Virus record (IMG/VR): IMGVR_UViG_3300044796_000657
Location: 62,001-126,000 of that record
Length of the DNA stretch: 64,000 bases
From: a virus
Strand: one strand, 5' to 3'
Shown here: one piece after another, positions 2,940 to 34,649 of the stretch
How the letters are laid out: every line of letters starts with the position of its first letter
Numbering within the stretch: position 1 is the stretch's first letter
Program-made: the position numbers and the translations under genes
The notes under the pieces: generated by a model
The model's input: the letters and a program-made list of their open reading frames with translations, nothing else
Told to the model about the DNA's origin: nothing
Database searches by the model: none

Positions 2940-2952
2940 GTTAACCTCAGAG

Positions 2953-3024
2953 TGGGCCGACCCGGATTCGAACCGAGAACCAAGACATTATGAGTATCCT
3001 GCTCTACCGTTGAGCTATCGGCCC
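2953..3024 (-). tRNA. tRNA with CAU anticodon (Met or Ile2)
   Basis: The 72-nt cloverleaf is complete: a 7-bp acceptor stem (GGGCCGA/TCGGCCC), a 4-bp D stem with GG in its loop, a 5-bp anticodon stem with two G-U pairs around CTCATAA, a 5-nt variable loop, and a T arm with TTCGAAT. The G1-C72 pair argues against an initiator tRNA. The CTCATAA loop and following TTGGT resemble bacterial tRNA-Ile2, which needs lysidine made by TilS; elongator Met is the alternative. No CCA end is encoded, so it depends on a CCA-adding enzyme such as the one at 9531-10226. Confidence 0.93.
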
Positions 3025-12386: not shown

Positions 12387-12415
12387 ACTATATCAAATAC
12401 GATCAACAATGTCAA
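12387..12415 (-). promoter_or_regulatory. Sigma-70-type promoter of the methylase gene
   Basis: TTGACA, 17 bp, TATAGT. The -10 box lies 34 nt before the ATG. Confidence 0.85.
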
Positions 12416-12437
12416 CAATATTCTTGCCATTTAACGT

Positions 12438-12466
12438 AAAAAGCCCCGTCAATGACGGGGCTTTTT
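12438..12466 (-). terminator. Intrinsic terminator
   Basis: AAAAAGCCCCGTC and GACGGGGCTTTTT flank a 3-nt loop. The run of T follows on either strand, so it can work both ways; it ends the gene at 12480-12899. Confidence 0.92.
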
Positions 12467-12479
12467 GAATTCGTTGCGT

Positions 12480-12899
12480 TTAGGCGACGAGTTCGGCGTC
12501 GTATTGTGCCACCAGAGCTTCCCGGCTGAGCTCCTTGTTCGGGCGACCGGCCACCTTGACGGGGTAGCGGCTGTTGTGGTTGCTGATGCCACGGTTTTCG
12601 CAGAACAGTTGGCCCTTGCGGTGGAAGAACTTAACTCCCTTGGGGCCGAATTGTTTCAGGCGGTAGATCGTGGTGACCGTGGCGTGTTCGCCGTTGCCGT
12701 TGTCGGCGGTGAAGTCGCCGTTCTTGTAGAACACCAAGATGTCCGTTTCGTAGAGGCGAATGAAAATCTTGCCATTGGCCAAGCGAACGTTGACGTTCTT
12801 GGCGATGTCCTTGTTCTTCTCGCTGCCGAGGAACTTCAGGTATTGCCCGTAGGTGTGGCAAACAGCGGCGGCTTCGAGCACTTTCGTTTGAAAGGGCAT
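12480..12899 (-). CDS. Uncharacterised 139-aa protein with strong codon bias
   Basis: The gene uses mostly G/C-ending codons (AAG, AAC, GGC, ACC), unlike its neighbours, and is followed by a strong terminator. Both points suggest high expression. The protein is beta-rich and basic, with an SH3-like look in the middle and NKELSREALVAQYDAEL at the end. The start at 12899 is set by GAGGATTTGACC. No family was recognised. Confidence 0.75.
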   Translation of the reverse strand: MPFQTKVLEAAAVCHTYGQYLKFLGSEKNKDIAKNVNVRLANGKIFIRLYETDILVFYKNGDFTADNGNGEHATVTTIYRLKQFGPKGVKFFHRKGQLFCENRGISNHNSRYPVKVAGRPNKELSREALVAQYDAELVA

Positions 12900-13658: not shown

Positions 13659-13859
13659 TCAATTTGTGAATTTTTTGGCCGAGATGGTGGCTAGATTTGA
13701 TGAGTTAACTCGCTTTGGATTTGTGGGGTCATGATCCCATACCACCGTGGCTACGACTACTCCGTTCACTGTTTGTGTATCGATGACAGTGCCACGCCAT
13801 CGGTGGAGATCACCCCCACCGATGGATTGAAGAAACTGAACAGAGTAGGCAACTCTCAT
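13659..13859 (-). CDS. Uncharacterised 66-aa protein
   Basis: A small beta-rich protein (GTVIDTQTVNGVVVATVVWD) that looks like an SH3/Tudor-type barrel. It is the last gene of the operon that begins after element 15. Confidence 0.65.
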   Translation of the reverse strand: MRVAYSVQFLQSIGGGDLHRWRGTVIDTQTVNGVVVATVVWDHDPTNPKRVNSSNLATISAKKFTN

Positions 13860-27265: not shown

Positions 27266-27279
27266 GGGTGTATGGTCAC
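27266..27279 (-). promoter_or_regulatory. Conserved leader element, copy 24
   Basis: An exact copy 23 nt before the start at 27242. Its TGA ends the zinc-ribbon gene upstream. Confidence 0.85.
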
Positions 27280-27767
27280 ACCATCTTGTAATCATCGCCA
27301 CCCAATAGGGCAACCAATTTATCGTAATTTTTACGCAAGTCTTTGTTGGGATGATGTTCGGCCAAGTAGCCGAGAGCGTGATTTGTGTACTTGTCGCCCA
27401 AACGTGCGGCCACTTGTCGCAATTGTATAGCCCATTCCACCATCGTCATATCGTTAACTGGTTTCTTGAATTCGTATTCCGGCCACTTGGATACGGTATC
27501 GGCAGCGGGAACATAAATCTTAACGGTTCGCACTACCCGAATGGTGGGTGTAATGAAAGCCGGGTCTTTGGATTTCTTTTCTCGCTTTGGTTTGGGCGTT
27601 TCAGCCATGCCAGTTAAATCATAACGGCAAAACGAACACTCCAAACTGAATTCGGGAATGCGTTTGTTGCATGACGGACACACATCATCGCTGAAGTTGT
27701 AGCCGCATGTACAAATAATTTCTTCGGTATCTAATACCGCTTCACAATCAGGACAATCCTTAGTCAT
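27276..27767 (-). CDS. Double zinc-ribbon protein, paralog
   Basis: CPDC and CTC form the first ribbon, CPSC and CSFC the second, all within the first 50 residues. A Lys-rich linker and a 90-residue helical domain ending in LLGGDDY follow. It is the tandem paralog of 27771-28397, which ends in LLGGEDY, and a relative of the gene at 1-297. Confidence 0.78.
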   Translation of the reverse strand: MTKDCPDCEAVLDTEEIICTCGYNFSDDVCPSCNKRIPEFSLECSFCRYDLTGMAETPKPKREKKSKDPAFITPTIRVVRTVKIYVPAADTVSKWPEYEFKKPVNDMTMVEWAIQLRQVAARLGDKYTNHALGYLAEHHPNKDLRKNYDKLVALLGGDDYKMV

Positions 27768-27770
27768 TTT

Positions 27771-28397
27771 TCACCAATTGCGGAAGGTATAATCTTCACC
27801 GCCGAGAAGTCGAAGAATCCTGTCGGCATTGGCCAACAAAACATCATTGCGACCATCTTTGCCGTGTCGCTTGGCGTGCCAAACGGCTTCTTGAGCACAC
27901 CAATTTGCGATGGCGTGATTACTCAAATAAACGCTACTACGGCAAGAAACCTGTGTTCGGTATTCTTCTCGGAAGTTAACCGCCCACTCTCGAAGGTTGT
28001 CGTCAGTGATTTCCTGATCCTTGGGCCAGAACAATGCCGAATAAGAAATGTCAGGCGTGCCGTAGTTGCCCAAAGCAACGGAATGGCTCAACCTCATACC
28101 ACCCAATTTAGGTTGGTTTTGTGGGCGATCTTCATCCACGTATTCATCATACGTTTGTTCCGGTTCTGGAGCGACTGCTACCGCTACCGGAATGAGTTCT
28201 TTGGATTTTTTGGGCTTGGGTGCTGCCTTAACTTTCGCTGGCGTGCCACTCAGAATGTCGTAATTGCAGTGAGGGCAAGTCGGCGATCCTTCTTCGATAC
28301 GAGCCTTGCAGCCCGGACAATCGTCCATCGAAAAATCGTAGCCACACTCACAGACAATGCCTGCAACATTGGCTTTACATTCGGGGCAAGGTTTCAT
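27771..28397 (-). CDS. Double zinc-ribbon protein, paralog
   Basis: CPEC/CECG and CPGC/CPHC make two ribbons. A Pro/Lys linker and a C-terminal domain with AVWHAKRHGK and LLGGEDY follow. The start at 28397 (GAGGTGCTCG before it) fits better than one four codons upstream. Together with 27276-27767 it looks like a tandem gene duplication. Confidence 0.78.
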   Translation of the reverse strand: MKPCPECKANVAGIVCECGYDFSMDDCPGCKARIEEGSPTCPHCNYDILSGTPAKVKAAPKPKKSKELIPVAVAVAPEPEQTYDEYVDEDRPQNQPKLGGMRLSHSVALGNYGTPDISYSALFWPKDQEITDDNLREWAVNFREEYRTQVSCRSSVYLSNHAIANWCAQEAVWHAKRHGKDGRNDVLLANADRILRLLGGEDYTFRNW

Positions 28398-28429
28398 CGA
28401 GCACCTCATCGTAATGATTACGACATGTA

Positions 28430-29268: not shown

Positions 29269-29628
29269 TTACGCATAGGATACAATGTTAATGGCCCGGT
29301 GTGGATAAAAGGACACTTTTCTTAAATCTTGCCCCTTTTTCACAGCCACCGCAATCGCATAAACATCAACAAGCATACCCTTCTTTTTAGCCGCTTTACC
29401 CAATCTACTAAAATGTTTGCCTGTTGCGCCAGACATTGTCATAGCCGACTGAAGACCATACCAAGAAGCAGTAAGACCAAATGGAGCTAACGCTTCCGCC
29501 AAAACCGTTTCCCGCTGCTTAATAGGATAGCGCTGAATGTTCTTCAAAAGAACCTTCAAAAATCGCCGCATCCGCATTGGGGCGACCTTTTTTGAAGGTT
29601 CTTTTTTGTATTTGATGAATTTGCTCAT
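29269..29628 (-). CDS. Uncharacterised 119-aa basic protein
   Basis: Very basic N-terminal half (KKVAPMRMRRFLKVLLKN), then helices. It could bind nucleic acid. It couples to the phosphoesterase gene by a 4-nt overlap. Confidence 0.7.
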   Translation of the reverse strand: MSKFIKYKKEPSKKVAPMRMRRFLKVLLKNIQRYPIKQRETVLAEALAPFGLTASWYGLQSAMTMSGATGKHFSRLGKAAKKKGMLVDVYAIAVAVKKGQDLRKVSFYPHRAINIVSYA

Positions 29629-30404
29629 TTGCCATGATGGGGAAAATAGGTTCTAGCAGCTTCTGTTTGATTATGAGCTGGCATCAAGGTTTCAAGAATT
29701 TCCACAATGTTGATAGGTCGATACCAAACATCCCAACCACAATCAAACGCACAAAAGATGCCGGGCAACTCACCGTGACTGTGACCATACAAGTTAATGC
29801 TGCGTGGTGGCTTCCCGCCTTCGATTGCTTGTCGATTGTGCTGTGACTTATTCCAAACCCTCATACTGTAATGAGTACACGTTAAGAGACTGCCTTTATA
29901 GACGATAGGGATTTTATGCTGATCGCAGAGCTTCCCTGACAACTGCAACTCAAATCCCATAGGGTGAATACCTTCAATGTATTCAGTCTCGCTCACCTCA
30001 TGGCACCGAGGGCATTTCTTTTCAAATGCCTCATTCTTATCAACGTGAAGGCAATTCAAGCATTGTTTTTGCCAGCGAAACAATTTCCAAACCGGTTGAT
30101 TACGAACTAATACGCCATCTCTTTTAACGAATATCCTATCGTGATTGCCACCAACCCAAATGATGTGTTTACAGTTAATGTTGTTCAAGTATTCTTGGAC
30201 TTTGGCAACATAAGCGAATTCATCATCCAATTCACCGGGCAAACCCAAATCGCCATTGTAGATGAACAAATCATCCGGTTTGACGTATTCGTTTGTGACT
30301 TCATAGATGTGTTTATTCATTGCGGCAGCATCGACATAAGGGCGTTTGCTGTACCGGATAACGTTGTTGTGATCAAGATGATAATCAGAACTATGCCAAA
30401 TCAT
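29625..30404 (-). CDS. Calcineurin-like phosphoesterase with a zinc-ribbon insert
   Basis: Metallophosphoesterase motifs in order: DYHLDH near residue 7, GDLG near 50, GGNHD near 85, a His (THYS) and GHSHG near 220. These bind two metal ions and cut phosphodiesters or phosphomonoesters. Between GNHD and the third motif an insert with CLNC and CPRC adds a zinc ribbon, which I have not seen as standard in this family. The start at 30404 follows the structured leader RNA at 30422-30489. Confidence 0.88.
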   Translation of the reverse strand: MIWHSSDYHLDHNNVIRYSKRPYVDAAAMNKHIYEVTNEYVKPDDLFIYNGDLGLPGELDDEFAYVAKVQEYLNNINCKHIIWVGGNHDRIFVKRDGVLVRNQPVWKLFRWQKQCLNCLHVDKNEAFEKKCPRCHEVSETEYIEGIHPMGFELQLSGKLCDQHKIPIVYKGSLLTCTHYSMRVWNKSQHNRQAIEGGKPPRSINLYGHSHGELPGIFCAFDCGWDVWYRPINIVEILETLMPAHNQTEAARTYFPHHGK

Positions 30405-30421
30405 ATTAAGCCTCGCCAACC

Positions 30422-30489
30422 CGCAGGGGATGGCATCGCACTGCAATGCCTTCCGCTGTTGTCAACGGAATCTGCCGGAATCCCCTGCG
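30422..30489 (-). ncRNA. Three-way-junction leader RNA
   Basis: On the minus strand a 10-bp closing stem (30489-30480 with 30431-30422) encloses a 9-nt single-stranded joint, an 8-bp hairpin with ACAA loop (30470-30451) and an 8-bp hairpin with AGU loop (30450-30432). Each hairpin has one U-G pair, and the two hairpins and the closing stem abut without gaps. It lies about 12 nt after the -10 box of the promoter at 30502-30530 and 18 nt before the phosphoesterase ATG. This layout fits a cis-acting leader such as a riboswitch. Confidence 0.65.
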
Positions 30490-30501
30490 AGCTTCCCAAA
30501 G

Positions 30502-30530
30502 ATGATAACATATCACACGCTGTTTGTCAA
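30502..30530 (-). promoter_or_regulatory. Sigma-70-type promoter
   Basis: TTGACA, 17 bp, TATCAT. Transcripts would start just before the three-way-junction RNA. Confidence 0.82.
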
Positions 30531-30558: not shown

Positions 30559-31176
30559 TTATTCCCAGTACTTCACCCATTCTTCACCAAATCTCTTCCT
30601 AAGTTCAGCCAAGTAAGCATTTGTTTTGATCTTGCACATCCACAATTCGTGCCGCTCACCACCCTTGCACATAACACCTTCACCAAAACTAAGCGGTGAT
30701 GAACGAATTGATTTAAAGAAATCTTCATCCAAAGCACCACAATAAAAGACTTCTGCTGATGGCACTATGTTAGAAAAGATTTTGACAAAAGAATCTGGTG
30801 AGATAATACCTTTTTTGTGAATGTTAACATCAATCAAGACGAGCTGCATTGGATCGCCTTGCACATGATGGCCAGCAAACGAATTAGGCCCGAACCATTC
30901 GCAATACGCAATCGCATTTTCACACTTCAAAACCTTTTCAAATGTGTGAGTTAAAGATGGGGCGAATTGTTTGAGAAACAATGGAATGGCAGCACCAAAA
31001 TCGGTGTCCTGATTATCGAATAGACGGGTTCGAGTACCAAATTTATACCATCCAGTTTTTCTATTCCACTCAAATCTCAAATTGGAACCATCGTATTTTT
31101 TAAATGCAATACATTTCAATGCCGGAGTTTGGTTGAGGAATTTATGTGCGTGCGGAATGGACGGATAGGGCTTCAT
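30559..31176 (-). CDS. RNA ligase (Rnl2-like nucleotidyltransferase)
   Basis: Covalent nucleotidyltransferase motifs are visible: motif I FKKYDGSN near 26-33 with the AMP-accepting Lys, motif IV EGVMCKG near 177-183, and motif V CKIKTNAY near 191-198. The length, 205 residues, covers only the catalytic domain. It would seal nicked or broken RNA, for example tRNA cut by host anticodon nucleases. The kinase-like gene at 50815 could supply the end-healing step. Confidence 0.85.
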   Translation of the reverse strand: MKPYPSIPHAHKFLNQTPALKCIAFKKYDGSNLRFEWNRKTGWYKFGTRTRLFDNQDTDFGAAIPLFLKQFAPSLTHTFEKVLKCENAIAYCEWFGPNSFAGHHVQGDPMQLVLIDVNIHKKGIISPDSFVKIFSNIVPSAEVFYCGALDEDFFKSIRSSPLSFGEGVMCKGGERHELWMCKIKTNAYLAELRKRFGEEWVKYWE

Positions 31177-34601: not shown

Positions 34602-34614
34602 AGAAGTGATTCCA

Positions 34615-34643
34615 TCTGCCGCCCGGTTAAACCGGGCGGCAGA
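34615..34643 (-). terminator. GC-rich hairpin
   Basis: A perfect 13-bp stem (TCTGCCGCCCGGT with its complement) with a 3-nt loop, directly behind the stop of 34650-34952. No T-run follows, so termination may be partial. Confidence 0.7.
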
Positions 34644-34649
34644 TTAAGG

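Follow-up and report, generated by a model that had tools for sequence, protein, structure and literature searches.

A three-way-junction fold in the predicted 5′ leader of a metallophosphoesterase mRNA of a huge phage

The whole stretch of DNA analysed here (the window) is 64,000 nucleotides long and covers positions 62001-126000 of a virus record of 430,229 bases, a huge phage. The computation confirmed a three-way-junction fold in the first ~80 nt of the predicted transcript of a metallophosphoesterase gene on the minus strand. The leader is non-coding, is placed between a promoter and a Shine-Dalgarno (SD) sequence, and folds more strongly on the transcribed strand than on the other one. 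An earlier note on this DNA had called it a folded cis-regulatory RNA. This reading stands in so far as the 5′ leader is driven by a promoter, does not code for protein and folds strongly, more so on the transcribed strand, while the evidence does not extend to any switch. The metal or nucleotide ligand suggested in the same note is not supported, since there is no Rfam family, no terminator, and only a costly SD-masking alternative. The three-way-junction shape by itself is insufficient to call a ligand-binding RNA. The leading reading, which I hold tentatively, is that of a cis-acting and mostly static folded leader of a phage mRNA, which may seal the 5′ end and keep the SD open.

Promoter, gene and neighbourhood

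The features of the locus are as follows, all on the minus strand.

30559-31176, minus strand: RNA ligase gene, the upstream neighbour, ending 28 nt before the promoter (phrog_548 RNA ligase, E 8.3e-11)
30525-30530, minus strand: -35 hexamer TTGACA (consensus scan, 11/12, with TG before the -10 hexamer)
30502-30507, minus strand: extended -10 hexamer TATCAT, preceded by TGT (consensus scan and record-wide pattern counts)
30495-30497, minus strand: predicted transcription start, a GGG run, with G30495 the likeliest (from the -10 spacing)
30480-30493, minus strand: 5′ strand of the closing stem P1, AGCUCGCAGGGGAU (fold; pairing probability mostly 0.97-1.0 at 37 C)
30471-30479, minus strand: 9-nt joint between P1 and P2, UCCGGCAGA (fold)
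30451-30470, minus strand: hairpin P2, 8 bp, loop ACAA (fold and pairing probabilities)
30432-30450, minus strand: hairpin P3, 8 bp, loop AGU (fold and pairing probabilities)
30418-30431, minus strand: 3′ strand of P1, AUCCCCUGCGGGUU (fold and pairing probabilities)
30411-30414, minus strand: SD sequence GAGG, 3 nt past P1 and 6 nt ahead of the ATG (sequence)
30401-30436, minus strand: upstream ORF of 11 codons, MPSPAGWRGLI, inside P3/P1, whose UGA overlaps the AUG of the gene
29625-30404, minus strand: metallophosphoesterase gene, 259 aa, with a four-cysteine insert (phrog_547 phosphoesterase, E 9.7e-25)

A good promoter had been claimed ahead of the leader, with no strand named. It was found on the minus strand as TTGACA-17-TATCAT with an extended -10 (30530-30502). 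It matches the pattern TTGACA-N17-TATNAT with no mismatch, and there are three such sites in the 430-kb record. Five copies of the pattern TTGACA-N14-TGNTANNAT are present in the record, always on the minus strand and between 46.9 and 92.5 kb, while the reversed control pattern does not occur at all. Thus, these sites form a real promoter class. The minus-strand sequence after the -10 hexamer through the start codon at 30404 is GGGAAGCUCGCAGGGGAUUCCGGCAGAUUCCGUUGACAACAGCGGAAGGCAUUGCAGUGCGAUGCCAUCCCCUGCGGGUUGGCGAGGCUUAAUAUG, with the ATG as its last three letters. The leaders of the other promoters in or near this class are mostly short and weakly folded, which indicates that the phosphoesterase leader is no by-product of composition. 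A perfect 5-3-5 dyad, TGATA-ACA-TATCA (30503-30515), overlaps the -10 hexamer of the leader promoter and is a possible operator. It is the sole perfect copy in the window, where chance alone would give about two copies with one mismatch.

The downstream gene is a metallophosphoesterase with an insert, as had been proposed. It belongs to the calcineurin-like proteins, and the insert carries four cysteines. The Pfam Metallophos match of the 259-aa product is slightly below the cut-off of that family. In alignments, the phage relatives share ~25-40% identity with it and lack the four-cysteine insert. The AlphaFold model has a mean pLDDT of 77, is low across the insert, and resembles only Aquifex 1xm7, a protein of unknown function. 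The homologous phosphoesterases start at the same methionine as the ATG at 30404. Thus, the leader is non-coding, and translation does not begin at the in-frame TTG codons further upstream.

Several related phages have the phosphoesterase or the RNA ligase gene among tRNA genes (L026, L049, L054 and L068; for the ligase, L003 and L007), and in a few of these phages a tRNA ends less than 50 nt from the start codon. Around 9 of the 60 phosphoesterase loci have tRNAs within ~1.5 kb. The tRNA-array setting hints at a role of the phosphoesterase and the ligase in tRNA repair or maturation. Past the phosphoesterase, close to where the next gene (29269-29628) begins, there is a 24-nt inverted repeat with 88% complementarity (29546-29605). 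It is perhaps an attenuator or an RNA processing site, or else the true start of that gene may be further in. Elsewhere in the window, a perfect 15-bp hairpin (34614-34644) and an equally perfect 14-bp hairpin (12438-12466) are intergenic and have 1-nt spacers; the latter has A and T tails and is a two-way terminator. Small proteins with paired zinc-ribbon motifs (CPxCx...CxCGYDF) are encoded at 1-297, at 27276-28409 and at other places, and the family has apparently expanded in this phage.

Architecture of the leader and its fold against chance

The elements that had been described for the leader were all found on the minus strand. The perfect 10-bp closing stem is CGCAGGGGAU/AUCCCCUGCG. Four further pairs, of which two are G.U, lengthen it to 14 bp (30493-30480 with 30431-30418). 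The two 8-bp hairpins with small loops are UUCCGUUG-ACAA-CAGCGGAA and GGCAUUGC-AGU-GCGAUGCC, each containing one G.U pair. P2 abuts P3 and P3 abuts P1 without any intervening base, and only the 9-nt joint from P1 to P2 carries bases. P1 starts ~2 nt after the predicted transcription start. Given that start, the structure is no more than ~4 nt away from the 5′ end, as is the case for 5′-terminal stabilising structures.

The fold is far from what base composition would give. The folding energy of the 92-nt leader is -46.4 kcal/mol, compared with -29.8 ± 3.3 for 5000 dinucleotide shuffles (z -5.0), only one of which was as low. For the plus strand of this sequence, z was -2.3. In a GC-corrected scan of both strands of the whole 64-kb window, the leader fold ranked third. 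A closing stem of at least 14 bp was seen in one of 3000 shuffled leaders. A descriptor of the three-way junction (a closing stem and two adjacent hairpins) gave the leader a score of 30; among 200 shuffled windows, one strand each, two scored at least 28 and the best reached 30. Of the 30 pairs, four are not Watson-Crick; each is G.U when read on the transcribed strand, and the opposite strand would have A.C at these places. This fits an RNA rather than a DNA palindrome, although with only four pairs it is weak evidence. Two other strong folds had at first been taken for three-way junctions; the one at 12411-12505 is a terminator-like hairpin, and the one at 13756-13850 is probable coding sequence.

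Relatives of the leader RNA were sought in several collections. In Rfam 15, the whole window at the gathering score contained no riboswitch, and the element at E up to 10 matched no family, two weak matches being meaningless. No second copy was found in the phage record by blastn or by a single-sequence covariance model. Three exact or gapped DNA patterns of the joint and the stems gave, in IMG/VR, either no match or matches in coding sequences that do not fit the model. The covariance model also found no match over the loci of relatives, although a model built on one sequence would miss diverged relatives. No genuine match was obtained by blastn in phage and plasmid collections. One scan of GTDB genomes gave 12 matches, near the chance number estimated for the pattern, and none of the 12 forms the fold. 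The leaders of 77 phosphoesterase relatives on viral contigs and of four others contain some hairpins, none with this junction, and nothing similar was found in the regions downstream of RNA ligase relatives. The nearest relatives by terminase are distant (26% in IMG/VR and 42% for LR756511.1). The absence of relatives for the leader RNA neither supports nor refutes it.

The ribosome site and the possible roles of the leader

The GAGG sequence lies outside P1, at a normal distance from the ATG, and is accessible. At 37 C, its first three bases are unpaired with a probability of 0.72-0.82, whereas weak pairing with downstream bases lowers the value to 0.18 for the last G. Between 15 and 55 C, P1 and the two hairpins form almost completely, and three of the four bases of the SD stay mostly open. 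Only one SD-masking alternative was found, formed by pairing of AAGCUCGC, the 5′ strand, with GCGAGGCUU. Its energy is -40.1 kcal/mol compared with -48.9 kcal/mol for the open fold. The masked state is 8.8 kcal/mol worse, so that the leader remains open unless a factor intervenes. The masking helix itself consists of eight pairs and one bulge (-10.8 kcal/mol), and it is equalled by 1.9% of shuffled 5′ heads.

Several candidates were discarded. An RNA thermometer is ruled out, as P1 remains paired even at 55 C and the SD is accessible at every temperature. An intrinsic terminator or attenuator is rejected because there is no U run, the domain being followed by GGCGAGGCUUAAUAUG, and no terminator was called on the minus strand. 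An inhibitory initiation structure of the T4 gene e type does not fit, since the SD and the AUG are both 3′ of P1 and not inside a helix. ARAGORN and Rfam found only a tRNA at 2952-3024, which leaves no tRNA or tRNA-like element in the leader. A hammerhead ribozyme was rejected because the joint is UCCGGCAGA, the other junction strands are empty, and neither the CUGANGA/GAAA core nor an Rfam match is present. The AUG of the MPSPAGWRGLI ORF lies hidden in P3, and the ORF has neither an SD at a suitable distance nor an unusual run of codons. It is probably a chance ORF, while it could serve translational coupling.

The open SD, the lack of a terminator and the cost of masking the SD together fit a static sealing leader best. 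In this tentatively preferred scheme, the strong sigma-70-type promoter would produce an RNA whose first ~80 nt close within ~2 nt of the 5′ end. The three-way junction would form and leave the SD free right behind it. RppH and RNase E are known to require an unpaired 5′ end, and mRNA is stabilised by secondary structure at that end (PMC3997798). I infer a stability effect of the same direction here; the sealed 5′ end may confer resistance to 5′-end-dependent decay by these enzymes or their counterparts, and pairing of the ribosome site with other sequences may be prevented by the compact fold. The outcome would be strong and long-lasting expression of the phosphoesterase operon. A trans factor could also bind the junction, although the analysis gave no sign of one. 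Two points speak against the static role. A plain hairpin would protect equally well, and the 9-nt joint with the abutting helices exceeds what protection needs; furthermore, the searches above gave no homologue showing the structure to be under selection.

The strongest rival, although unlikely, is a protein-binding operator, in which the phosphoesterase, the RNA ligase or another phage protein would bind the junction, block the SD 3 nt away and thereby bring about autoregulation of the kind seen with T4 gp43 and gp32. P1 extends into the 30S footprint, the leader RNA is a single copy specific to the phosphoesterase operon, and T4 gp43 provides a precedent for an RNA operator near the ribosome site (PMC3014915). 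In opposition, the phosphoesterase has no identified RNA-binding domain, the motif has no second copy, and no leader is conserved among the relatives. It is improbable, more so than the operator, that the leader represents a new phage cis-regulatory RNA class, namely a junction aptamer whose joint would bind a metabolite, a metal ion or a phage protein and set the translation of the metallophosphoesterase operon in huge phages.

Ranked below these, and rather doubtful, is a chance or DNA-level origin, such as a GC-rich palindromic insertion (a mobile or recombination site) that happened to fall in the leader. The GC content of 59-61% in a window of 43% GC, the single copy and the lack of relatives would suit such an insertion, but it does not account for the difference between the z of -5.0 on the transcribed strand and -2.3 on the other, for wobbles that are G.U in the RNA sense in four of four cases, or for ends that closely fit the promoter and the SD. 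Lower again I place an orphan riboswitch. Here the 9-nt joint and the abutting hairpins would make a pocket, and a ligand would shift the balance between P1 and the AAGCUCGC/GCGAGGCUU helix that hides the SD. The junction architecture suits this idea, and so does the ability of the 5′ strand of P1 to pair either with its 3′ strand or with the SD region. However, the energy gap of the SD-masked state would leave nearly all of the RNA on without a ligand, and a ligand would merely reinforce this state. In addition, the leader occurs at a single gene with no Rfam match and no homologue in the collections searched, while conservation is a hallmark of most riboswitch classes.

Least probable of all is a stand-alone small RNA of ~80 nt, cut from the mRNA or ending near the SD and acting in trans, for although the domain is compact, closed and under its own promoter, and another extended -10 promoter of the phage drives an ORF-poor region with a similarly sealed 5′ end, no terminator lies past the domain, which is followed at once by a good SD and an ATG with a normal frame, and the promoter is the only one of the gene. 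That other promoter (locus L147, G000:C1:46908-46936, minus strand, outside the window) is followed by ~400 nt without a convincing ORF. The region has a 10-bp closing stem around one 7-bp hairpin, 2 nt past the predicted start. The fold of the whole 515 nt has a z of only -1.6, and there was no match in Rfam or in phage blastn. It is a candidate for a non-coding RNA or a long structured leader.

Comparison with known systems

A structured 5′ leader of a phage mRNA is a kind of element that is already known, and the form found here is unusually crisp. Structured leaders of huge phages are little charted, and the phosphoesterase leader is a compact case with a clear promoter and SD. If sensing were true, it would be a first example in this phage group; if not, it is another phage message with a sealed 5′ end.

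The purine riboswitch class has a three-way junction with P1 beside the expression platform and two hairpins with larger, kissing loops. The phosphoesterase leader likewise has a closing stem P1 and two hairpins. In contrast, it has no conserved core, its loops are 3-4 nt, two of the three junction strands are empty, and there is no Rfam match. The hammerhead ribozyme has three helices around a junction with the CUGANGA and GAAA core. The leader also has three helices, but it lacks the core and has bases in one junction strand only.

The T4 leaders (the gp43 and gp32 operators and the initiation regions of gene e, soc and gene 25; PMC3014915) are similar in being structured phage mRNA at or near the initiation site. 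The RNA operator bound by T4 gp43 contains, among its parts, a hairpin upstream of the start codon and a sequence overlapping the ribosome site (PMC3014915). In T4 gene e, soc, 49 and I-TevI, the SD or the AUG is within a helix (PMC3014915), whereas in the phosphoesterase leader it is outside. The gp43 and gp32 sites bind known proteins (PMC3014915), while the phosphoesterase leader has no known binder. The 5′ stem-loop stabilisers of ompA and papA (PMC3997798) are simple hairpins of host genes with measured effects on half-life, whereas the present case is a three-way junction in a phage leader known from sequence. They have in common with it a stable structure a few nt from the 5′ end, a non-coding nature and an open ribosome site.
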